Origin: Fimbriimonadaceae bacterium
GTDB lineage: Bacteria > Armatimonadota > Fimbriimonadia > Fimbriimonadales > Fimbriimonadaceae
Direction: 5' to 3'
Length of the DNA: 64,000 nt
NCBI GenBank assembly: GCA_019454105.1
Contig: CP075364.1
Coordinates: 623,362 to 687,361, forward strand
The notes below the pieces were generated by a model, which was given only the letters and a program-made list of their open reading frames with translations, ran no database searches and was not told the DNA's origin. Below are positions 1-60,650 of the stretch, in pieces. How positions within the stretch are numbered: position 1 is the first letter of the stretch; every line of letters begins with the position of its first letter. A program made the translations under genes and the position numbers.

Positions 1-126
1 TCAAGCTTCATCGAGCCGTCGACCCGAGAAGTGAGGGCCCGGCTCCTCTTCCGCGCGACCGGCCCCGTGACCACCCCGGTCTGGAGGGCGAAGATCGATC
101 TGGTCCGCTGGACGGTGACGAACTGA
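1..126 (+). CDS. C-terminal end of a secreted protein (5' truncated by window edge)
   Basis: An open frame runs from the first base to a TGA and gives 41 residues, ending in IDLVRWTVTN. The stretch FRATGPVTTPVW followed by ID and a W near the end matches the last 40 or so residues of three other large exported proteins in this window: FRRTGPVATSTY...IDRSVW, VRNTGPTASPTW...VDRLNW and the LVNWTVNP ending. The visible part is therefore most likely the end of the same C-terminal domain, and the missing part lies to the left. The N-terminal architecture cannot be known from here. Assignment as coding is fairly sure; the function is unknown. Confidence 0.6.
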   Translation, partial: SSFIEPSTREVRARLLFRATGPVTTPVWRAKIDLVRWTVTN

Positions 127-36862: not shown

Positions 36863-37498
36863 ATGATTATGAAGACCTCTAGGGCCATTCTTCTTGGCTC
36901 GCTTGCCTCTATGTCCGTCGGAACCTTCGCGTTCGTTAACCCGGGTTTCGAGACGGGAGACCTGACCGGCTGGAACATCAGTTTCACGCCGAACGGCAGA
37001 ACCGCCATCCAGGACGTGATCCGCTACGATATTGACGGCCCGGGGCCAAAGGGAGAGAGCCTTGCCGGCCGGTTTGCTGTCGGACAAGTGAACTTCCAGG
37101 CGGGAGTCCAGGAAGGGATGTTCCTGACTCAGAACCTGAACCTGACCGGAGGCACGAACTACGTGATCGGTTACGACTGGTCCGCGTACCGCGACCCCGG
37201 AACTGGGGACAACTCCCAAGGCGGGGTGTTCTCAGTCGTGATCAACGGGTCTCTCTTTGGTACGCAGGCAGCCGGATCGACTGGTCCGAACACGCCGAAG
37301 TACGGTTCGATCTTGGTGAACTTCACGCCGACCACAAGCGGCGTGTACACCATCGGGGCCAGCATCACGCGACCCTTCACAGTGCCGACAGGGCTGTATC
37401 AGGTCGTCGACAACTTCAGTGTCGTGCCCGAACCTGGCACGTTGCTGGCCTTGGGAGCTGGCCTGGCCGCGTTGATAGCGCGCCGACGAGCCAAGTAG
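36863..37498 (+). CDS. PEP-CTERM sorting-domain secreted protein
   Basis: The 211 residues start with a signal peptide (AILLGSLASMSVGTFA), then FVNPGFETGDLTGWN, the beginning of the carbohydrate-binding-module-like fold frequent in PEP-CTERM proteins. The C-terminus VVPEPGTLLALGAGLAALIA with a basic tail is a PEP-CTERM tag. An eight-bp hairpin (GAAGATTG with CAATCTTC, 36832-36852) sits in the leader immediately before GGAG and the ATG, so ribosome access might be affected. About 280 A/T-rich bases separate it from divergent clpB. A bidirectional terminator follows. Confidence 0.85.
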   Translation: MIMKTSRAILLGSLASMSVGTFAFVNPGFETGDLTGWNISFTPNGRTAIQDVIRYDIDGPGPKGESLAGRFAVGQVNFQAGVQEGMFLTQNLNLTGGTNYVIGYDWSAYRDPGTGDNSQGGVFSVVINGSLFGTQAAGSTGPNTPKYGSILVNFTPTTSGVYTIGASITRPFTVPTGLYQVVDNFSVVPEPGTLLALGAGLAALIARRRAK

Positions 37499-48003: not shown

Positions 48004-48927
48004 ATGCTCATCAACCGCTTGTGCATCTTGTCCTTGGGCATCATTGTCGGCTCCGCCGCCATGGCCCAATCCATCGACGGCTCTCGTGACGCTAGCTACA
48101 GCTCGTTCCTCCGGGCCACTCAGCGCACCAACACTGGCTTCGGCGACAACTTCTCGGAACTCAACAATGCCTATGCCTACACTGACGGAACCAACCTGAA
48201 CGTCTTCATCGGTGGCAACCTCGAAGGCAACGGCAACACGTTCGAGATGTTCCTTGACAGTGCAGCCGGTGGACAAAACTCGCTCACCGGCCAGAACCAG
48301 GTCGTGGATCCGGGCGGAGCCAACGATGCGGGCGGTGCCCTCGGCGCGAACCGCATGCAGGGCCTCACGTTCAGCACCGGCTTCGAGGCCGACTACTACT
48401 TCACCATGCGCCGTAACGGCAACACCTTGTCCGCCTTTTGGGGCGTCATCGGTGGCAGCGGCAACGGTGTGACCCTGGACAACAACGAGCTCGGTATCAA
48501 GTACGGCTACGACAATTCGAACACTGGCGGCGTCGGAGGATTCAGCGCCAACACGCCGCTCCTTCCCCCGAACGATCCGGGCGTCGCCGGCGTCAGCACC
48601 GGGCTCGAGATCCAGATCCCACTTGCTCAGATTTCCGCCACCATCGGCGGCAACGTTCTCGTCACCGCGTTCGTGAACGGCGGCCAGCACGACTACGCCA
48701 GCAATCAGTTCCTCGCCGATAACCCGCAGGGTGGCCTCCCTGGAGACTCGAACGGGTTCATGCGCGGCAACCTCGGCGGCGATGGAAACGGGAACTATAT
48801 TGGTGGCCGCGTCAACTTCACGATTCCGGACAGCACCTACTTCACTGTCAACGTCGTGCCGGAGCCGGCCACGATGCTGGCGATGGGTGCCGGACTCCTC
48901 GCCTTGGCCCGACGACGCAAGAAGTAA
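48004..48927 (+). CDS. PEP-CTERM sorting-domain secreted protein
   Basis: The 307 residues start with a signal peptide (CILSLGIIVGSAAMAQS). The mature part is Gly- and Asn-rich with repeats such as TDGTNLNVFIGGNLEGNGN and DNNELGIKYGYDNSNTGG, predicted as beta-sheet. The C-terminus VNVVPEPATMLAMGAGLL followed by ALARRRKK is a PEP-CTERM tag. It is probably an exported surface or matrix protein; no function is recognisable. A hairpin terminator follows. A six-bp hairpin lies 40 bases before the start. Confidence 0.85.
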   Translation: MLINRLCILSLGIIVGSAAMAQSIDGSRDASYSSFLRATQRTNTGFGDNFSELNNAYAYTDGTNLNVFIGGNLEGNGNTFEMFLDSAAGGQNSLTGQNQVVDPGGANDAGGALGANRMQGLTFSTGFEADYYFTMRRNGNTLSAFWGVIGGSGNGVTLDNNELGIKYGYDNSNTGGVGGFSANTPLLPPNDPGVAGVSTGLEIQIPLAQISATIGGNVLVTAFVNGGQHDYASNQFLADNPQGGLPGDSNGFMRGNLGGDGNGNYIGGRVNFTIPDSTYFTVNVVPEPATMLAMGAGLLALARRRKK

Positions 48928-50147: not shown

Positions 50148-51827
50148 CTATTGGCTGGCCCAGACGGATCGGTCGATGGAGCCGCTATAGGTCGAGGTAG
50201 CCACAGGGCCAGTCCGTCGGAACTGGATTTGGGCCCGGATCGCCCGAGTCACTGCTTGCAGGTAGGGTCCAGGGGAAGCAGCGGTGGCGGTCACCGTCTG
50301 GTCGATAAGTGAGGCCGCACGGGCGTCGACGAGATCGAACTGCGACCTCGTCCAGTTCCAGAACAGGACTTCTTGAGTCAGCCCCGTAGTCGACACGCTG
50401 GCTTCGAGCGTCAGGCTCAGTGCGGCCGGGTTCGCCGATTGCGCGACCGACTCGAGAGTCACAGCGATCGGCGGTTCTGACGGATTGGCGACGATGCCAT
50501 TGCGGACGATAAGCTTGTCGTCTTCTGACCTCAAAAGGCTCGCCAGACCTCCGCTTTGGCGGACACCACGGAAGATCGAGAAGCTCAGTGGAAGGGTCGG
50601 CGCCCCTGGATCTCGATAGGCTCGGATGTTGTTCCCTGTGCCGCACACGATCAAGGTCCCGTCCTTGGCCAACACCGGGCCGCCCACATTGACGTTCGTC
50701 ACCGCTTCTTGCCACTGAAGGTTGAGGTTGGAGTCGAAGGCGAAGAGCGCTCCATTTGAAAACGCTCCGTTCGTCAGGTACACCCGTCCGCCAAAGTCCA
50801 CCGCGATCCTGGGTTGGAAGAAGTCGCTTGGGAGGCTCGGCGAGGTCGCCAAAACCGATCCCGTGGCCGGGTCAAGCTTCACCAGTGTTGGCGGCGTCGT
50901 CCGAGCGTAGGTGTAGGGCGATCCGTCTGGGCCGACGGCGTGGGAGGCGAAGGGTGTATAGCCCATGGGGTAGCGCCACTTTTCGACGAAGGACGAACCA
51001 GCGTCGGTCAGTGCCACGAAGAAGTCCGTGACTGGGTTGTTCTGAGTCCTCGGGGCGTAAACGGTGCCGTCTGGGCCGACCATGAGACCGAGCTGCTGAA
51101 CCAAGCCCCCAGAGATCGCTGGGCTCCGGTGGGCGGCCAGACCGGTGGTCAGGTTTAGGGCGACGACCCGGGGACCGTTCGACGTCGCTTCCCAGGTGTA
51201 GCCTCGGTCGCCGAAGACGGCCACGTTCGAGCCGTCGCTCGAAGGCGCGGCGCGGCTAAAGGTCCAGGCCGTCGTCCCGTCAGAGGCTCGGATCCTTCGG
51301 ACGTTCGTGAAGCTGCCAGCGATGATGTCGCCGTTCTCGGCAAAACTGATCGACTCTGTCGAAGTCTCGTCGATCGTGTCTTGCGACTTCCAGAGGACGG
51401 TTCCGTCAGTGGCCCGCAGGGCATAAAGGAAGCTTGCGTTCGTGTTACCGGCCCTCGTGGCGTAGACGACTCCGTTACGGACAGCCGTCACTTTGTTGCG
51501 CCAATCAGTCGAAGGGAAGTCGACCGGAAGGGACGTGCGCCACAGCTCCTGGCCGGTGTCCACGTCGTAAGAGAGGATCGAGGTGCCTTGCAGGACGTCG
51601 CTGATGTTGAACATCCTGGCTACGACAAATCGCGGGCCCTCGGCGGCGCCTTGCTGGGAGACGACGGCGCCCAAGCCACCCGTCCAAAGAAGGTTGCGCG
51701 CCGACGGCCCGTCGAAGATCGACCGTCCCGAACGACTCGGGTTGCCTCCCACGGCGACTGGCCAATCAAAGGACTGGGCCGACGCGAAAACGGGCAGCAG
51801 GAGAAAGGGGACGATTGTTCGGCGCAT
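50148..51827 (-). CDS. Exported PQQ-like beta-propeller protein with shared C-terminal domain
   Basis: The 559 residues start with a signal peptide (TIVPFLLLPVFASAQSF). A series of PQQ/BamB-like blades follows: LSYDVDTGQELWRTSLPV, YALRATDGTVLWKSQD, RIRASDGTTAWTFSR, VALNLTTGLAAH and LDPATGSVLATSPSLP, each with the Asp-x-Thr-Gly turn. From about residue 410 a different domain begins (RGVRQSGGLASLLRSEDDKL, VSTTGLTQEVLFWNWTRSQF) and ends FRRTGPVATSTY...IDRSVW. That end matches three other proteins of this window. The protein is probably secreted or periplasmic. Function is unknown. Confidence 0.8.
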   Translation of the reverse strand: MRRTIVPFLLLPVFASAQSFDWPVAVGGNPSRSGRSIFDGPSARNLLWTGGLGAVVSQQGAAEGPRFVVARMFNISDVLQGTSILSYDVDTGQELWRTSLPVDFPSTDWRNKVTAVRNGVVYATRAGNTNASFLYALRATDGTVLWKSQDTIDETSTESISFAENGDIIAGSFTNVRRIRASDGTTAWTFSRAAPSSDGSNVAVFGDRGYTWEATSNGPRVVALNLTTGLAAHRSPAISGGLVQQLGLMVGPDGTVYAPRTQNNPVTDFFVALTDAGSSFVEKWRYPMGYTPFASHAVGPDGSPYTYARTTPPTLVKLDPATGSVLATSPSLPSDFFQPRIAVDFGGRVYLTNGAFSNGALFAFDSNLNLQWQEAVTNVNVGGPVLAKDGTLIVCGTGNNIRAYRDPGAPTLPLSFSIFRGVRQSGGLASLLRSEDDKLIVRNGIVANPSEPPIAVTLESVAQSANPAALSLTLEASVSTTGLTQEVLFWNWTRSQFDLVDARAASLIDQTVTATAASPGPYLQAVTRAIRAQIQFRRTGPVATSTYSGSIDRSVWASQ

Positions 51828-52007
51828 CTCCTATGAGTACCCTATTCGCAGCATCGTTCGGCTCCAGTGAAAGCGCCGGTTCCAGATGGGGCCAAAGACT
51901 CGAACTCCGAGAACGCTTACCAGGCTTAATGACCGGATAACGAGCCCACGGTAACCCTGGCGAGGAACAAGCTCAAACGGGCTCGTTCCAGGAGAGGAAC
52001 CAACCCA

Positions 52008-53246
52008 ATGCGCAACCTGACATTGCTTTCCGCCGCGCTGATGTTCGCGGCGGCCTTCGGCCAGACGCCCGTCAGCGGCTTCGACTTCGATGGCACGCTC
52101 AACCCGTACCTTGACAACAATCCGCCGAACGTCTTCCCGCTCGAGCACCGCACCGGCGGCAGCCCGACGGCGCCGTTCGGCCCGACCGTCTTTGTGAGCG
52201 ACACGGTCGGCACCACGACCAAGCAGGTCGCCAAGTTCGACGCTCCCCAGTTCTTCCGAGTCCTCCATGGCATGAAGTCGAACGGCGGTGGCGACTACGT
52301 GAACCTCTACACGCTCGTTATCGACGTCAAGTTCGTCAATCCGGCCATCGGGTCGTTCTCCAGCCTCTATAACTCCAACGACGACAACCGCAACGATGGC
52401 GACACGTTCATCCGGTGGGATGACAACGGATTCGGCAGCCCGATCGGCAAGATCGGCATCTCGGGTCAGTACAACGGGGAGATCCAGCCGAACGTTTGGA
52501 ACCGGATCGTCCTCACCTACGACGCCACCATCGGAACCTTCATTTACTACGTGAACGGAACTGTCGCCCAGACGGTGACAGGGGCCGGAGTCGTCGACGG
52601 ACGCTGGGCCCTTTACGGATACGAGGACTTGGATGTCTACGACCACTATGACCTCTTCGGCGACAACGACGGCGACAATGGGAGCGGGTTCGTCAGCCTT
52701 CTCGTCAATTACGACACCGTTCTCACCGCCGCCCAAGTGGCCGCTCTCGGCCCGGTCGGCACCCGCATCGGTGGCGCGACCTCCGAGACCATCGCTCCGG
52801 ACGCCCTGACCCTTCAGCGCGGCCAGATCGTCTCGGGCACCATCGCCAACCTTGCTGTCGAAGACAACGTCGCCCTCCGCCTGAAGAAGTTCTTTGTGGC
52901 GAACCCGGTCGAGCCGTTCGTTTGGGGCACGCTCCAGGGCACGACTTCGATCCTGAACCCAAGCTCCGTCACCTTCCGCGTCAAGAGCCGCATGGTCACC
53001 GGCGGCCAGTTCTCCCAAGAGATCGAGCAGTTCAACTGGAGCACGAGCCTCTGGGAGAACAAGACCGAGACCAACCCGTTCAACACCATCTATGGCACCC
53101 GGGAATCGGTCGCCAACCCCGCCACCAACAAGGTCAACGGTAGCGGTCGCCTCCAGGCCCGCATCCGCACCTTCCCGCGCGGGATCTCGGCGAATCCGTT
53201 GCCTGAGACCGACTGGGATCTCGTCAACTGGACCGTCAACCCGTAA
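52008..53246 (+). CDS. Exported LamG-type jelly-roll protein with shared C-terminal domain
   Basis: The 412 residues start with a signal peptide (LTLLSAALMFAAAFGQTPV). Residues 25-260 form a LamG/concanavalin-like fold with FDFDGTLNPYLDNNPPNVF, YVNLYTLVIDVKFVNPA, PNVWNRIVLTYDATIGTFIY and GRWALYGYEDLDVYD. The last 150 residues are the C-terminal domain shared with other exported proteins here: LTLQRGQIVSGTIANLAVED, SRMVTGGQFSQEIEQFNWST and RIRTFPRGI..LPETDWDLVNWTV. No membrane anchor is seen, so the C-terminal domain may serve surface attachment or secretion. An Asp-rich run (about residues 205-225) suggests calcium binding. Confidence 0.8.
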   Translation: MRNLTLLSAALMFAAAFGQTPVSGFDFDGTLNPYLDNNPPNVFPLEHRTGGSPTAPFGPTVFVSDTVGTTTKQVAKFDAPQFFRVLHGMKSNGGGDYVNLYTLVIDVKFVNPAIGSFSSLYNSNDDNRNDGDTFIRWDDNGFGSPIGKIGISGQYNGEIQPNVWNRIVLTYDATIGTFIYYVNGTVAQTVTGAGVVDGRWALYGYEDLDVYDHYDLFGDNDGDNGSGFVSLLVNYDTVLTAAQVAALGPVGTRIGGATSETIAPDALTLQRGQIVSGTIANLAVEDNVALRLKKFFVANPVEPFVWGTLQGTTSILNPSSVTFRVKSRMVTGGQFSQEIEQFNWSTSLWENKTETNPFNTIYGTRESVANPATNKVNGSGRLQARIRTFPRGISANPLPETDWDLVNWTVNP

Positions 53247-53256
53247 GGGCGTGCGC

Positions 53257-53274
53257 GGCGGACTTCAGTCCGCC
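53257..53274. repeat. GGCGGACT palindrome
   Basis: A perfect eight-bp stem (GGCGGACT with AGTCCGCC) 11 bases after the LamG gene stop; it may act as a terminator. The unit GCGGACTTCAGTCCGC is of a type that recurs between genes in many GC-rich genomes. Confidence 0.5.
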
Positions 53275-53286
53275 CCCACCCCCTGC

Positions 53287-53311
53287 CCCCTCCCCCGTAA
53301 CGGGGGAGGGG
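53287..53311. repeat. CCCCTCCCCCG hairpin repeat, copy 1
   Basis: An 11-bp perfect stem with a TAA loop, in a longer C-rich and then G-rich stretch. A near-identical element with loop TGA lies at 60770-60796. A looser relative (TCCCTCCTGACAACGGGAG) follows at about 53,333. They look like dispersed intergenic repeats. Confidence 0.65.
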
Positions 53312-53509
53312 AGGGGGGATTCGTCCTGTCGCTCCCTCCTGACAACGGGAGAGGGGGTTCCGACCTTTTCTCGCTCCCCTTTTCGTCTCCCCAAATGCTG
53401 GGGAACGCTTATTGTCGTTCTTTCTCTGAAGCGAAAAGGTGCCGCGGGTCCAGTGGTGGCCGCTGCGAGCGCATTCGGGGCCAGGGCCAGCGTCTGCGGC
53501 TCGAGTGAG

Positions 53510-53515
53510 TAGAAT
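53510..53515 (+). promoter_or_regulatory. TAGAAT -10 box before the SARP-like gene
   Basis: TAGAAT ends 12 bases before the ATG, with no Shine-Dalgarno sequence between, predicting a leader of about six bases. Confidence 0.45.
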
Positions 53516-53527
53516 TCGGCACAATCG

Positions 53528-56374
53528 ATGGATCCCCACCCTCGCCTAAGGCTGAAGCTGCTCGGTGGGTTCCAGGCGGTTCGGATCGAAGACGGCGCGG
53601 CGGTCAAGTTTGCCAACCGCAAGGTGGCCCAGTTGCTTGCTTACCTCGTGCGAAGCCCTGGCGATCGACACGATCGGAATCGGGTCGCGAAGGCAGTTTG
53701 GCCCGACGCGGCCTCGGAAGCGGCCCTGTCTAGCCTTCGTAACGCCCTCACCCTCCTGCGCAAGGATCTCGATCAGCACGGCATTCCAGCGGACGAAGTG
53801 CTTCACGCCGACCGAGTGTCCCTGACCGTGGTGCCAGGCACAATTGAGACCGACCTGGATGAGTTGACAAAGGGGCGAGCAGGTGAAGCTCTGGCCATCT
53901 ATACCGGGCCGCTGGCGCCAGAGTGGGACACGGGCTGGGCAGCGGAGGCTCGGGCCCGGGCTCGGGCCCACGTTCGGGCCGAAGCGTGTCATGCCGACGC
54001 CGATGAGGTCGTCGCCGCCCACAGCCGGGATCCTGAAGACGAGCCGCTCTTCCAGGCTGCTGTCTCCGCACTTTTGGAGGAGGGTCAGGCGGCGCGGGCA
54101 GTCGACATCGTCCGTCGTTTCTCACGGTCGCTGCGAAAACGGGCCGGACACGCCCCGTCAGAGACCACGGCCGCCTTGGCTCGCAAGGCCCGGATCATGG
54201 CCCGAGCTAAGAGTGCGCGGCCAGAGTCGAATGTGCCACGGCCCCAGACGCCTCTTTTTGGCAGGGACACCGAACTGGAGGAGGTCACGCAAGCTCTGGC
54301 GACTCCTGGTGTTAGGGTCGTTACACTTGTCGGAACTGGAGGCGTCGGCAAGACCAGGCTGGCGCTCGATGTGGCCTGGCGGGCCAAGGACACGCTTCGG
54401 GGGGCCGTCTGGGTCGTCGACCTCGCCGCATCGACGGACCCGGCCCAAGTGCCGCGCAGCGTCCTCTCGACGGTCGCGCCTGACAGTGACGCGTCTGACG
54501 CGCGAGCCGCGCTCGTCGAGGTGCTCGCCTTTGTCCCATCGTTACTTGTGCTCGACAACCTTGAGCAGTTCGGCCCTGGCTTGCGTTCCGTGATCGACGA
54601 CCTGGCAGAGGTCCTGCCGCTCACCCAGTTCCTCGCGACCAGCCGCACAGACCCAAGGATCGAAGGGAGCCGGGTCGTCCGGCTCGAGCATCTCGCCCTG
54701 CCGAGCTTGATTGGCGACCCGCTCGACTGTCCGAGCGTCGCGCTCTATGTCGAGCGTGCACGGGCTGTGGCCCCGGGCTTTGTTCTCGACGATCCGCTTG
54801 TGCTTGGCGAACTCGCCAAAAGGCTCGAAGGGCTTCCGCTCGCGATTTGCCTCGCCGCGGCCCAGGCCGACGTCCTCTCTCCCGCCGAGACTCTCCGACA
54901 ACTCGACGACCGGTTCGCTCTTCTCCAGACCGAGACATTGCCCTGGCCCGACCGACACCGACGACTGTGGGCCTGCCTGGATTGGAGTCACCGCCTCGTG
55001 CCCGAGTCACATCGGCTCCTCGCTCGCCTCACGCCGTTCCGGGGAGGATGGACGGTGGAGACCGCCACGCCTCTCTGCCCCGACGAGCCGGTCCCTTCCA
55101 GGCTTCAGGGGCTGCTCCGGACCTGCCTGATTGCGGAGTCCTCTCGAGCAGGGCAAGTGCGCTTCGACATGGCTGAGTCGGTTCGAGAGTTTATCGAAGC
55201 CCAAATGAGCCCAGAGGAACGCGAGCAGGCGAGCGCGGGGCATGCCACGGCCATGCTCGCGTGGCTGCAGCACCCAAGCCGGACGCAGCAAACCTTCAAC
55301 GCCGGCTATCTCCGAGACCGAACGTTGGAGTACGAGAACTTGCGAGCCGCATTCGACTGGTGCCTGGAGTTCGATCCATCGGGAGCCCTGCAGGTGGTCA
55401 ACGCCCTTGCCTACTACTGGCTCAGCCGCGAGATGGCGAGGGAAGGGCTCGAGTGGATCGACCGGGCTCTGGCGCGGCCCGAGGGTCTCGAACCTGTATC
55501 GGTGGCGATGGCCCACCGGGCTCGGTCCACGATGCTTATTGGTCTCTCCCGGTTCCACGAAGCGGTTGACGCCCTTGAACAGGCTCTCAAAATCCTGCCC
55601 GACGGTACCGATCCCCTGACTCAGGCCAGAACGCTCAACTCGCTAGGCAATGCTTTGATGAGGGTCGAGCGGTTCGACGAAGCCCTTGCCAGCTTTGAGC
55701 GTGCCCAAGGTCTGTGCGAGGTCTCCGGGGCGGCAGCGGTCGGCCTGTCGATGCAGGGGAACGCAGGGCTGTGCTTGTATCTGGCTGGCCGACTGGTGGA
55801 GGCGCGGAAGACCACCGAGTCCGTCGTCGACGCACTTCGCGATGGCGACAATCACGACTGGCTGTCCTACTTTCTCCACAACCTGGGGCTCATCGCCCGA
55901 GCGGAGGGCGATGACTTCGAAGCCTTACAGTGTTTTGCCGAGGCCCGCGACGTCGCCGAGTCAGTTGGAAACGATCCAGCGGGCCGGGGGTGGCTGGCCG
56001 ATGCCGCTGTCTCTGCCGTACGGACTGGGGATCTGGACCGGGCGCGGGCCTGGATCCACCAGGGAGCACGGGCTGTCCGCCTGACGAAGGGATCGGAGCA
56101 GTACGCCGAGTGCGTCGAGGCGGCTGCGGTTCTCTTCGAGTCCGAGGGTGAACTCGATGAGGCGGCGGCTTTGCTCGCGGCCCTGGTAGAGAGCGGCCTT
56201 TCGCCGCAACGGTCGCAGGCCGATCGCTCGCCCCGGCCGGCCGAGCGGCTCGAGCGTTTGCGCCAACGACTGGGGCCAGCTTTCACCCTGGCCGCGGGCC
56301 GTTACCGCGGCTTGGCTTTCGTCGAGCTTCTTGAAGAGGTCGCGGATGCGACCGCTTCCTCAGATTCCCTGTAG
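53528..56374 (+). CDS. SARP-type regulator with BTAD, NB-ARC-like ATPase and TPR domains
   Basis: The 948-residue protein starts with a winged-helix DNA-binding domain (LKLLGGFQAVRIEDG, NRVAKAVWPDAASEAALSS, residues 8-80), then a bacterial transcriptional activation (BTAD) helical repeat to about 225. An ATPase domain follows with the P-loop LVGTGGVGKTRLAL (267-280) and Walker B SLLVLDNLEQ (Asp343), then a winged-helix region and TPR-like repeats (ARTLNSLGNALMRVERFDEA, and others) to the end. This is the AfsR-like SARP layout: an ATP-driven switch that activates transcription. Its neighbours are large exported proteins, so it may control one of them, but no binding sites are known. Confidence 0.88.
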   Translation: MDPHPRLRLKLLGGFQAVRIEDGAAVKFANRKVAQLLAYLVRSPGDRHDRNRVAKAVWPDAASEAALSSLRNALTLLRKDLDQHGIPADEVLHADRVSLTVVPGTIETDLDELTKGRAGEALAIYTGPLAPEWDTGWAAEARARARAHVRAEACHADADEVVAAHSRDPEDEPLFQAAVSALLEEGQAARAVDIVRRFSRSLRKRAGHAPSETTAALARKARIMARAKSARPESNVPRPQTPLFGRDTELEEVTQALATPGVRVVTLVGTGGVGKTRLALDVAWRAKDTLRGAVWVVDLAASTDPAQVPRSVLSTVAPDSDASDARAALVEVLAFVPSLLVLDNLEQFGPGLRSVIDDLAEVLPLTQFLATSRTDPRIEGSRVVRLEHLALPSLIGDPLDCPSVALYVERARAVAPGFVLDDPLVLGELAKRLEGLPLAICLAAAQADVLSPAETLRQLDDRFALLQTETLPWPDRHRRLWACLDWSHRLVPESHRLLARLTPFRGGWTVETATPLCPDEPVPSRLQGLLRTCLIAESSRAGQVRFDMAESVREFIEAQMSPEEREQASAGHATAMLAWLQHPSRTQQTFNAGYLRDRTLEYENLRAAFDWCLEFDPSGALQVVNALAYYWLSREMAREGLEWIDRALARPEGLEPVSVAMAHRARSTMLIGLSRFHEAVDALEQALKILPDGTDPLTQARTLNSLGNALMRVERFDEALASFERAQGLCEVSGAAAVGLSMQGNAGLCLYLAGRLVEARKTTESVVDALRDGDNHDWLSYFLHNLGLIARAEGDDFEALQCFAEARDVAESVGNDPAGRGWLADAAVSAVRTGDLDRARAWIHQGARAVRLTKGSEQYAECVEAAAVLFESEGELDEAAALLAALVESGLSPQRSQADRSPRPAERLERLRQRLGPAFTLAAGRYRGLAFVELLEEVADATASSDSL

Positions 56375-56609
56375 GCTTGAGCCAAGGCTCCTTCGGGGCT
56401 CCGGCTCAGGAGGTTGGCCCTTCTGCGTCGAATGGCGTCGTCCCTGAGTGACAGAAATGCCGGTCTTGATGCTCTTGCAAAGCGCTTTGCGCTGGATTCG
56501 CGGTATGGCTCGCCACGATGACGCTGGGCCGATTCTGGCCGAGGCAAGCCATGTCCAATGCGACCATCATACAAGTCACTTCGTTCCGAAACCAGCGAGG
56601 CGCGGTTCG

Positions 56610-59600
56610 ATGATCCTCAATTCATATTGCCTGAGCGTCGCAATCAGCTGGGCGACGCTCGTCTCGACCGAGCAGGAGCTGCGCCGAGATGTCGATCTTT
56701 GGTCACGCGCAAGCGTCGAGCGGGCCGAAAAGGCGACGAGAGACCACTTGGTCGCGAAACGGGCGTTGGGACTACTGAAATCAGGTGAAGAAAAGGCCCT
56801 CAAAAAGCAAACCTCCTACTACCAGTTGCGGGCCCAGCTCCTCAGGACGAGGGCTTGGCCGGAGGACCGCATTGATGTCTCCCGCTATCAGAAAGCCATG
56901 GAACACAAGCGTCAAATGCCCGAGGCGTCCAACAGCGACTACATCGGGTCGGGCTGGACTTTCTTCGGCCCCCGCAACATGTCGGCGGGCAGCGCGGCTA
57001 TGGGCACAAGCCCGGTCACAGGGCGAGTCAACTCTGTCAGGCATGATCCTGCGTCGCCGAACACCTGGTGGGTCGGCGGGGCTACGGGCGGAGTGAGCAA
57101 GACCACGAACAACGGGGCAGGCTTTTCCATCCTCGCAGACAAGTGGGACTACATGTATGTGAGCGACATCGAGGTCGACCCTTCCAACAGCAACCGTGTC
57201 GCGGTCGCGACCGGGGACTTCCCAGGTTGGTGGGGGTACGGCATGGGCATCATGATCACTACCAACGGCGGCTCGACGTGGACGAACCGATTGCGGACCG
57301 AACTCGGGGGAACGGAGGCGTCGGACATTTCGTTCGATCCAGACACCCCCGGTGTGATGCTCGTGACCGCAGGTCGAGGGTCGGGCAACACGGGGAACGG
57401 AGTGTGGCGGTCGACAGACAACGGAACGACCTGGACGAGGGCGCTCAACACGACCGACGGGTTCACAAAGATCTCTCACTCCCTCCGTTCGAGCAACATC
57501 CGGAACATTTATGTAGGAACTGAAATCGGCGGAGGCGTTTATCGGAGCCGAGACGGCGGGGTCACCTGGCAAGCGGTCCACCTCCCGAACAACTTGGGAC
57601 TCGTGACCCTGGCCACTTCGACGACGGCGCGCGACACGGTCTACGCCTATTCCTCGGCGGGCAACGTTTATCGAAGCACAAACGCGGGCAACTCCTGGAC
57701 GTCGATCAGCGGGAACATTTCGAGCGTCCTCGGCGGGTTTGACGACACGTGGAAGCAAACAGCCTACAACTATTTGTTCGGAGTCGTGAACAGCCTGACG
57801 GACGGGTCTGGTACCGATGTGCTCGTGCTCGGCATGGTCGACATCTTCGTCACGACGAACCCCGGGTCGGCGAGCCCGAGCTGGACAGTTCCGTTCCGGA
57901 ACGGCAGCGCGCGCACGATCCACTCCGATGCCCATGGGTTCTCACAACACCCAACCGCTAAGAACCGAGCCCTCGTCGGCACCGACGGAGGCGTGTGGGA
58001 AATCTCGTATTTTCCCGCGCCCATAGGCTGGGTTGTCGCGAACAGGAACGAGTCGCTGCGCCTTACGGAGCACCTCCATCTTTCCGCCCACCCGAATGCC
58101 AGCGCCCAGCCCGACTATGTGCTCACCGGCATGTGGCACAACGGGGCCACGACTTCGAACAATGACCCCTGGAACTGGCAGGGACTCCACGGGGCCGACG
58201 GCATGTATACGGCGATCGACGACGTGAATCCCAATATCCAGTTCTCAAGCATTCAAAACCTCGGCCAGGGCGGCACCGGTGAGGTCGAGATCATTGCTAC
58301 CATGAACGGATGGACTTCGGGCGCGACCTACAAACGTTCGACGAACGAGGTCTTCCCATTCATCACACCATGGACCGAGGTGCCCGGGGAGAGCGGCTCG
58401 CTCTATTTTGCCGCTCGTCGACTTTGGAAGTCCCGGCTGACCAGTGGAGTCATGACGTGGAACACCGATGTCACGGGTTCGACGGTAACTCCCATCAACA
58501 CCGAAGTGACGGCCATTGCCGCGGCCTCAGCATCAACGGTCTTCCTTGGTAACGACATCGGGGAGGTCAGGGGCGCACTGAACGTCGTGACGGGTGGCAT
58601 GCCCGTCCTGGCGGATCTGACAGGAGTGATCACTTCGATCGCGGTCGGATCGACCGACCCCGACGACTTGCTTGTAACGACCGGCAACGGGCGTTTCCCT
58701 GGGGGCAACGGCGCGGTCTGGGAGATCCTCGACGCGACAGATTCGATCAACAGGCAGATTGTCAACCGCAGCGGGTCGGGTACCACGGCTCTCCCGGGCA
58801 TCGGGGCGAACTGGATCGTTCGCGACCCGTACCAGCCAGTAACTACATGGTACGCCGCGACAGACCTCGGGGTCTTTTACACTCAGGATCGCGGGGCCAA
58901 TTGGTACAACGCCACCGAGCCCCTCGGACTCCCGAACGCCTTGATCTATCACCTCGCCGTCAGCGACGGCTACCTCTATGCGGGAACGTTTGGCCGGGGG
59001 GTCTGGCGGATGCAACTCAGGCAGTCCGCTCCCGACGTGACCGGATTCACGTTCGCCGGCGCCGACGTCACGGGCGGCAACCTCGCCGACGGCACCGTGA
59101 CTCTGGCAAGTCCGACCCCGCCTGCCGGTCTGAACGTGCTCTTCACGTCAAACAACCAGTCAGCAGTTCCGGCACAAGCTGTGTTCGTGCCAGGAGGGAG
59201 GACGGTGTCTAATGTCCAATTGAGAACGAACATCGTCGGTGCCCACACAACGGTCAGCGTCACTGCGCTCTCGGGCAACGGACAAGCCAGCGACTCAATC
59301 ATCGTCCGGGAGTGCTCCGTGATCGGGGTCAGCGTCCCGAATGTCACGGGCGGCAACTCGGTGCAAGGCACAGTGACGCTCGACCGCGCAGCGCCAGATG
59401 GCGGCCTGCCTGTGTCGCTGGCTGACAACGATGCGGGAACGACCGTCCCTGCCCAGATCACAGTCCCGGAGGGGGCCACGGTCGGAACCTTCAACGTCCA
59501 AACTCAACTCACACCCATCGACCGGACGGTCAGTGTCCAGGCAAGCGGCCCAGGAAGCGGGGCTCAAGGCTCGTTCACGCGGCTGGGCGTTTCGCTCACC

Positions 59601-60650
59601 TCGGCCGTCGTCACGCCCGACCCGGTCTGGAACACCCAGCCGTCGGGAATCCGGCTCACTCTGAACAGAGCCGCCCCGACGAGCGGCTTCCCAGTGACGA
59701 TCGTCAGCGGGAACCCGGCGGTGGCAAGCGCGCCGGCCAACTTCAGCGTCCCCAATGGGGCGACGACGTCTGTCGCGCCGATTGATACCTTTTGGGTCGC
59801 GGCCGACACGGTCTGCGGTTTTCGAGTGACGGACCCCTACCAGGGATTCATCGAGGACACCCTCCTCGTCCGCAATCTGAGCGTCACCGGCCTTGGGTTC
59901 ACGCCAAACCCGGTTGTGGGTGGGGAACAGGTCACTGGCACAGCGACCCTGAACAAAAGCGTCGGTTCGACTCCAGTCACATTGAGCATCACGAACAGCA
60001 ACCCGGCTTTGCTCCAAGTGCCGACCCAAGTTACCGTCCTTGCGAACCAGTCGTCGGCCAACTTCGTCGGTATCACGAACCCGCCAGGTTCGATCTCGAC
60101 AGCGGACGTCGAGGTGCAGTTAGGGTCCCGTCGTGACCCCGGAGCCTTCGCCGAGACGAGACTGACGGTCCTTCCGAACGTGATCACCGTGGTGCCGTCG
60201 AGCATCACGGTGAATCTCGGCCGCATCGATGCTGGGACTGTCGCGAGCTTGGCCGCGATCGACGGCGACGTGCTCCGCGTTTGCCGGTTCGTCGTTCCCA
60301 ATCAGACGGTCGCGCCTGTCACGGTCCAGGTCAACGGCAACGCACCGATCGGATCGGCTTCGGCCCTCGAGGTCCACGTCCGATCGCGGATGAGTGTCAC
60401 CGGGCAGTTCACACAGAACCTTGAAATGTTCAACTGGGTGACCAACAACTGGGACGCGGTAGATACCCGAACAGACAACTCGAACACGACATTTGCTGAC
60501 CGGGTGCTAATCGGATCGGGCGACTTGACACGCCTTCTCCGTTCAGACGGGTCGCTCAGGGTGCGGTATCGGGTTCGGAACACAGGCCCGACCGCCTCGC
60601 CGACCTGGTGTCACGAGGTCGACCGGCTCAACTGGATACTCAGGCCTTAA
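56610..60650 (+). CDS. Giant exported BNR/VPS10-like propeller with Ig-like repeats and shared C-terminal domain
   Basis: I start at MILNSYCLSVAISWATLVST, a signal peptide with GAGG nine bases before the ATG, giving 1,346 residues; the longer frame begins with unlikely sequence. The first 800 residues form a large propeller with Asp-box turns (ITTNGGSTWTNRL, WRSTDNGTTWTRAL, YRSRDGGVTWQAV, FYTQDRGANWYNA). Four Ig-like repeats of about 90 residues follow, each with GGNLADGTVTLA-type strands. The last 155 residues are the domain shared with three other proteins (VHVRSRMSVTGQFTQNLEMF, VRNTGPTASPTWCHEVDRLNW). Paralogous to the 829-residue propeller. The gene follows the SARP-like regulator by 235 bases. 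Confidence 0.85.
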   Translation: MILNSYCLSVAISWATLVSTEQELRRDVDLWSRASVERAEKATRDHLVAKRALGLLKSGEEKALKKQTSYYQLRAQLLRTRAWPEDRIDVSRYQKAMEHKRQMPEASNSDYIGSGWTFFGPRNMSAGSAAMGTSPVTGRVNSVRHDPASPNTWWVGGATGGVSKTTNNGAGFSILADKWDYMYVSDIEVDPSNSNRVAVATGDFPGWWGYGMGIMITTNGGSTWTNRLRTELGGTEASDISFDPDTPGVMLVTAGRGSGNTGNGVWRSTDNGTTWTRALNTTDGFTKISHSLRSSNIRNIYVGTEIGGGVYRSRDGGVTWQAVHLPNNLGLVTLATSTTARDTVYAYSSAGNVYRSTNAGNSWTSISGNISSVLGGFDDTWKQTAYNYLFGVVNSLTDGSGTDVLVLGMVDIFVTTNPGSASPSWTVPFRNGSARTIHSDAHGFSQHPTAKNRALVGTDGGVWEISYFPAPIGWVVANRNESLRLTEHLHLSAHPNASAQPDYVLTGMWHNGATTSNNDPWNWQGLHGADGMYTAIDDVNPNIQFSSIQNLGQGGTGEVEIIATMNGWTSGATYKRSTNEVFPFITPWTEVPGESGSLYFAARRLWKSRLTSGVMTWNTDVTGSTVTPINTEVTAIAAASASTVFLGNDIGEVRGALNVVTGGMPVLADLTGVITSIAVGSTDPDDLLVTTGNGRFPGGNGAVWEILDATDSINRQIVNRSGSGTTALPGIGANWIVRDPYQPVTTWYAATDLGVFYTQDRGANWYNATEPLGLPNALIYHLAVSDGYLYAGTFGRGVWRMQLRQSAPDVTGFTFAGADVTGGNLADGTVTLASPTPPAGLNVLFTSNNQSAVPAQAVFVPGGRTVSNVQLRTNIVGAHTTVSVTALSGNGQASDSIIVRECSVIGVSVPNVTGGNSVQGTVTLDRAAPDGGLPVSLADNDAGTTVPAQITVPEGATVGTFNVQTQLTPIDRTVSVQASGPGSGAQGSFTRLGVSLTSAVVTPDPVWNTQPSGIRLTLNRAAPTSGFPVTIVSGNPAVASAPANFSVPNGATTSVAPIDTFWVAADTVCGFRVTDPYQGFIEDTLLVRNLSVTGLGFTPNPVVGGEQVTGTATLNKSVGSTPVTLSITNSNPALLQVPTQVTVLANQSSANFVGITNPPGSISTADVEVQLGSRRDPGAFAETRLTVLPNVITVVPSSITVNLGRIDAGTVASLAAIDGDVLRVCRFVVPNQTVAPVTVQVNGNAPIGSASALEVHVRSRMSVTGQFTQNLEMFNWVTNNWDAVDTRTDNSNTTFADRVLIGSGDLTRLLRSDGSLRVRYRVRNTGPTASPTWCHEVDRLNWILRP

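Follow-up and report, generated by a model that had tools for sequence, protein, structure and literature searches.

Carbohydrate-binding modules (CBMs) sit at either end of a protein or inside it, and they are found mostly on carbohydrate-active enzymes. PEP-CTERM tails (PF07589) are much smaller elements of about 24 residues, with a PEP motif, a membrane helix and a basic tail, while type I dockerins (PF00404) are built on a duplicated calcium-binding motif. PEP-CTERM was recognised by its strict C-terminal position, by the signal peptides and diversity of its passengers and by its multiple copies per genome (PMC1569441). The T9SS signal, too, is C-terminal, a beta-sandwich that serves as an export signal (PMC4804311); the CTD of the Porphyromonas gingivalis RgpB type is Ig-like, with 7 strands in about 80 aa. 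Surface placement of proteins is poorly known in diderm phyla other than Bacteroidota and Proteobacteria.

Here we describe a domain of a Fimbriimonadaceae bacterium that probably serves as a so far undescribed tag for sorting to, or anchoring at, the cell surface. It is established that the domain is shared by different proteins, is strictly C-terminal, interchanges with PEP-CTERM and dockerin-like tails and has moved recently. The window, that is, the whole stretch of DNA that was analysed, has 64,000 nt (assembly GCA_019454105.1, CP075364.1 positions 623,362-687,361, forward strand) and belongs to a genome of one contig and 2.74 Mb (G000, hereafter the own genome).

Results

Four genes of the window carry the domain. 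The PQQ/BamB-like propeller protein h22 (50148..51827, minus strand; 559 aa, PF13360 E=3.2e-13) has a signal-peptide-like N-terminus and ends in a domain copy at 50151..50606 on the same strand (profile match E=5.8e-49, G000:C1:673512-673967). The LamG-like protein h08 (52008..53246, plus strand; 412 aa) also starts with a signal peptide, its Laminin_G_3 match is below the cut-off (E=6.5e-4), and its domain at 52773..53243 (plus strand, E=1.8e-52) is of a 'LTLQRGQ' subtype that has spread within the own genome. The VPS10/BNR-like propeller protein h01 (56448..60650, plus strand; PF15902 E=2.2e-15) is up to 1400 aa long, although its true start may be near 56610, where a signal-peptide-like start lies at residue 55; its domain is at 60177..60647 (plus strand, E=5.7e-58). 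The fourth carrier, h18, is a VPS10-like frame of 923 aa that begins upstream of the window, so only the last 41 residues of its domain fall at 1..126 (plus strand), the full copy being at G000:C1:623011-623481 (profile E=1.7e-54). At this left edge (G000:C1:620210-623481) h18 stands in tandem with another VPS10-like carrier, h32, and the two passengers are 37% identical. An AfsR/SARP-like ATPase with TPR repeats, a possible regulator, lies at 53528-56374 between the LamG and VPS10-like carriers.

A sequence-only reading of the window had claimed that the last 40-150 residues of four otherwise unrelated proteins form a common domain. When the C-terminal 149 aa of the VPS10-like protein were used as a single-sequence query against the own genome, the LamG protein (E=2.8e-18), the PQQ protein (E=9.9e-11) and the gene ending at window position 126 (E=1.9e-15; copy at G000:C1:623053-623478) were recovered with scores far above chance, and chance similarity, which that reading had named as its own possible undoing, can be set aside. 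The domain is complete in the PQQ, LamG and VPS10-like proteins, and a fourth copy is represented by its end, the stub at 1-126, as had been supposed; the range of lengths reflects the visible part, since every complete copy has about 150 aa. While the PQQ, LamG and VPS10-like passengers are indeed unrelated to each other, the passengers of h18 and of the VPS10-like protein are homologous (24.6% over 828 aa, E=4e-26), so 'four otherwise unrelated' does not hold. The same query finds 33 copies in the own genome at E<1e-3, and the genome-wide profile count that had been suggested, made with a profile built from 28 copies, gives 42, every one C-terminal.

No Pfam or NCBIfam family covers any of the window copies, and for this reason we take the similarity as real and the domain as something other than a simple known one. 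Scans of whole proteins and of domains with Pfam and NCBIfam gave PF14741 (GH114_assoc) as the sole recurrent match and no model of the domain's own; a profile search of PDB sequences returned nothing significant (best E 0.11), and no description of the domain was found in literature searches. The structure of the PQQ protein's copy (50151..50606) was predicted with AlphaFold2 from 17 sequences (pLDDT 94.9, pTM 0.89), and the predicted fold is a CBM4/22-like jelly roll. The top fold match of this predicted model, with Z 14.1, is a domain from a baseplate protein of phage phi812, followed by a mannanase CBM (Z 11.7), CBM4-2 (11.5) and CBM22, CBM29 and CBM32 (about 10); no T9SS CTD structure is among the fold matches listed, which excludes nothing. 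Though the predicted model resembles CBM4, CBM22 and CBM29 in fold (Z about 10-11.7), sequence identity to them is low, and the domain is neither tied to a consistent enzyme class nor ever internal. Among 105 copies conservation reaches 86-98% at each of the residues G13, G18, L23, D27, Q77, W139, D144 and W148 (model numbering); at position 83 (same numbering) 99% of copies have N or D. These residues make up one shared near-invariant set, as expected with one common partner; their role may be structural.

The family link to PF14741 is weak. Only one of 28 own copies exceeds the curated cut-off of 22 bits (33.2), with h26 (20.7), h32 (16.2) and h31 (13.2) below it, and among relatives 10/63 copies match at E<0.01 (best 6.3e-5). 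The likeness is limited to a few own copies, mostly matching weakly, while most copies are without a match, and PF14741 is described as N-terminal and, by its name, associated with GH114, whereas the domain here is always C-terminal. The sequence-only reading would have fallen with membership in a known CBM or Ig-like Pfam family; a CBM-like fold and a few copies touching PF14741 graze this point but do not reach it.

The position of the domain was determined with six-frame searches, which have no bias towards C-termini. In the own genome 42/42 copies are C-terminal (one weak partial match aligns to 20 residues short of the end), all 67 sampled copies in relatives end 0-4 residues before the stop, and 18/18 copies in a Planctomycetaceae MAG end within 2 residues of the terminus. 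The domain is always single and last in its carriers, which usually end in ..D(Q/L)V.W.V.P, and is never internal in any copy examined. A signal-peptide-like N-terminus is present in 31/33 own carriers, as judged by a simple hydrophobicity heuristic, not by SignalP. In Pfam the carriers match propellers and proteases for the most part, with subtilases and Porphyromonas-type peptidylarginine-deiminases among the passengers.

At E<=1e-3 the domain is present in 73/113 genomes of the class and is rare in the remainder of the phylum. Some genera have 10-60 copies and others 0-5, genera with just 1-5 copies being common. A scan of named genomes, with a two-sequence alignment as the query and organism names as in public records, placed the domain in Armatimonadetes and Fimbriimonadaceae MAGs and in the Planctomycetaceae MAG Ww544, which has 36 matches; a single-sequence query in the same scan gave no match.

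Passengers of the domain occur with other C-terminal tags as well. Three own carriers, h10, h11 and h15, have passengers 50%, 41% and 38% identical, respectively, to PEP-CTERM proteins of the same genome. The partner of h15 is in the window (48004..48927, plus strand; 38% over 264 aa, E=2.6e-28; PEP-CTERM match at 48856-48921). For h10 and h11 the homology to their partners reaches '..NTRFRGL', after which one protein proceeds to VPEPGT..RRRRK and the other to the domain. Three more carriers, from other genomes, match PEP-CTERM proteins of the own genome. Another window protein, with a PEP-CTERM tail at 37424..37489 (plus strand), has a passenger that matches the domain carrier L121 of genome G004 (46% over 149 aa, E=1e-35). 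Across the genomes of the family, the h10 passenger family is found with the domain in G000, G009, G091 and G022, with PEP-CTERM in G000, G009, G091 and G067, and with a dockerin-like tail in G002, G034, G005 and G098. In the last four genomes another shared C-terminal region lies ahead of the dockerin-like tails in which the homologous passengers (L180, L181, L183 and L185) end, and these genomes may have a further large C-terminal module family.

Like PEP-CTERM, the domain is strictly C-terminal, reaches tens of copies per genome and sits on diverse signal-peptide proteins, including homologous ones. Unlike it, the domain is a folded unit of 150 residues with no PEP motif, membrane helix or basic tail, and its abundance does not go with that of PEP-CTERM. 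Since PEP-CTERM is present in 105/113 genomes of the class whether the domain is abundant or not, PEP-CTERM machinery does not track the domain, and a dependence of the domain on PEP-CTERM was rejected on the same 113 genomes. Five large, nearly complete genomes of genus g19 (G062, G073, G075, G076 and G078) have zero PEP-CTERM matches while other members of the genus have many; the exosortase tag system has apparently been lost in these five.

Type I dockerins resemble the domain in that they take the C-terminal place on homologous passengers of related genera, but the domain has no duplicated calcium-binding motif, and dockerins are abundant in other genera. The own genome has 0 dockerins (PF00404), and no domain copy matches PF00404. 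Ten or more dockerins occur in 0/16 genera that have 10 or more domain copies versus 11/31 other genera (Fisher exact test, P-value = 0.0085, uncorrected for phylogeny); this exclusion may partly follow phylogeny.

Six carriers (h09, h10, h11, h12, h15 and h16) bear a module of about 470 nt with 95-98% DNA identity on different passengers, of which h10 and h11 are 35% identical and no other pair matches; the module has therefore moved recently. DNA identity among the six falls off at the domain start, and in h09, h10 and h16 the shared DNA runs about 100 nt beyond the stop codon. Relatives of h08, h09, h10, h11 and h15 in G009 or G091 retain passengers 50-67% identical with domains of 28-41% (67% and 41% for the LamG protein and its G009 relative), and this conservation of the passenger with divergence of the domain indicates that modules are being replaced within the own genome. 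For the VPS10-like h01 and its G091 counterpart, domain (88%) and passenger (80%) are about equally conserved.

Discussion

Because the domain has the same hallmarks that led to the recognition of PEP-CTERM and interchanges with two other C-terminal tags, we favour, with somewhat better than even confidence, a large folded C-terminal module for surface localisation, used as a substitute for PEP-CTERM or dockerin. A passenger would cross the inner membrane via its signal peptide, and the jelly roll of about 150 residues, CBM-like by prediction and the last element of many kinds of Sec-exported proteins, would then keep it on the cell surface through one shared partner, which would be either a docking protein or a surface glycan. 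What we infer from this arrangement is the location at the surface, the partner and the non-covalent mode of binding, and the predicted fold class enters into it as well. Given the CBM-like fold and the interchange with dockerin, we prefer docking to a surface partner to a signal purely for translocation. A point against anchoring is that a strict C-terminal position is not required of a non-covalent anchor. The sequence-only reading had seen here a sorting, anchoring or export module used alongside PEP-CTERM; C-terminal position, signal peptides and tag swaps support a sorting or anchoring role well, and either an export signal or a binding anchor would fit them. If surface localisation is correct, many proteins that are at present labelled hypothetical would gain a location. 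The domain with its swaps provides a defined set of cargos, together with natural tag-swap pairs, for a direct test of surface placement. A broader proposal, which we put forward tentatively and consider possible but doubtful, is an undescribed sorting system of diderm Armatimonadota and Planctomycetota, in which a C-terminal jelly roll is the signal, has a putative outer-membrane receptor or translocon of its own, replaces dockerin or PEP-CTERM and is redistributed by recent transfer of 3'-end modules.

The export-signal option draws on the T9SS CTD, itself a folded C-terminal beta-sandwich that acts as an export signal on many exported cargos (PMC4804311). The domain, also last on Sec-exported proteins and with many copies per genome, might likewise be an outer-membrane translocation signal, with a dedicated translocon that recognises the folded sandwich, carries the protein out and perhaps also cuts off the domain. 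Strict position, signal peptides and tens of unrelated cargos per genome would all follow, and the subtilase and Porphyromonas-type peptidylarginine-deiminase passengers are cargo of T9SS type. We nevertheless think it rather unlikely: a jelly roll of about 150 aa is not an Ig-like CTD of about 80 aa, the commonness of genera with 1-5 copies is unlike a dedicated system, and the dedicated processing or secretion gene that the earlier reading had hoped to see tracking with the domain was not found. T9SS CTD family models had no match to the domain in the Pfam or NCBIfam scans. T9SS itself is unlikely in the own genome, where the PorU sortase model NF033707 has no match; in the 113 class genomes no match exceeds its cut-off, and SprA (PF14349) is found in 0/113, a model for which control genomes gave no match either. 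Genome G038 and the order-level families f2 and f5 show weak PorU-model matches, mostly to its C-terminal tail, with one match to the peptidase C25 region (E=1.1e-17); T9SS-like tails may exist in this order outside Bacteroidota.

An ordinary carbohydrate-binding module, directing secreted proteins to a polysaccharide of the environment and taking no part in sorting, would account for the predicted CBM4/22/29-like fold and for the weak GH114_assoc link. It is improbable for a domain that is always single and last, whose carriers match mainly propellers and proteases in Pfam, and which takes the place of dockerin-like and PEP-CTERM tails where passengers are homologous. That the strict position is a by-product of spread by recombinational copying of gene 3' ends, with little functional meaning, has in its favour the six near-identical modules, three of them sharing about 100 nt past the stop codon, and a palindromic repeat 3' of several carriers, but is very improbable given C-terminal placement also in copies of about 25-30% identity and in another phylum, near-invariant key residues and a VPS10-like domain as conserved as its passenger.

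The palindrome, CCCCTCCCCCGT..ACGGGGGAGGGG, has just two copies in the window, at 53287 and 60771, both just 3' of domain-carrying genes. In 300 kb of the genome, a sample biased towards carrier genes, 10/18 copies are within 250 nt 3' of a carrier, and the repeat may be a terminator or a vehicle of module spread.
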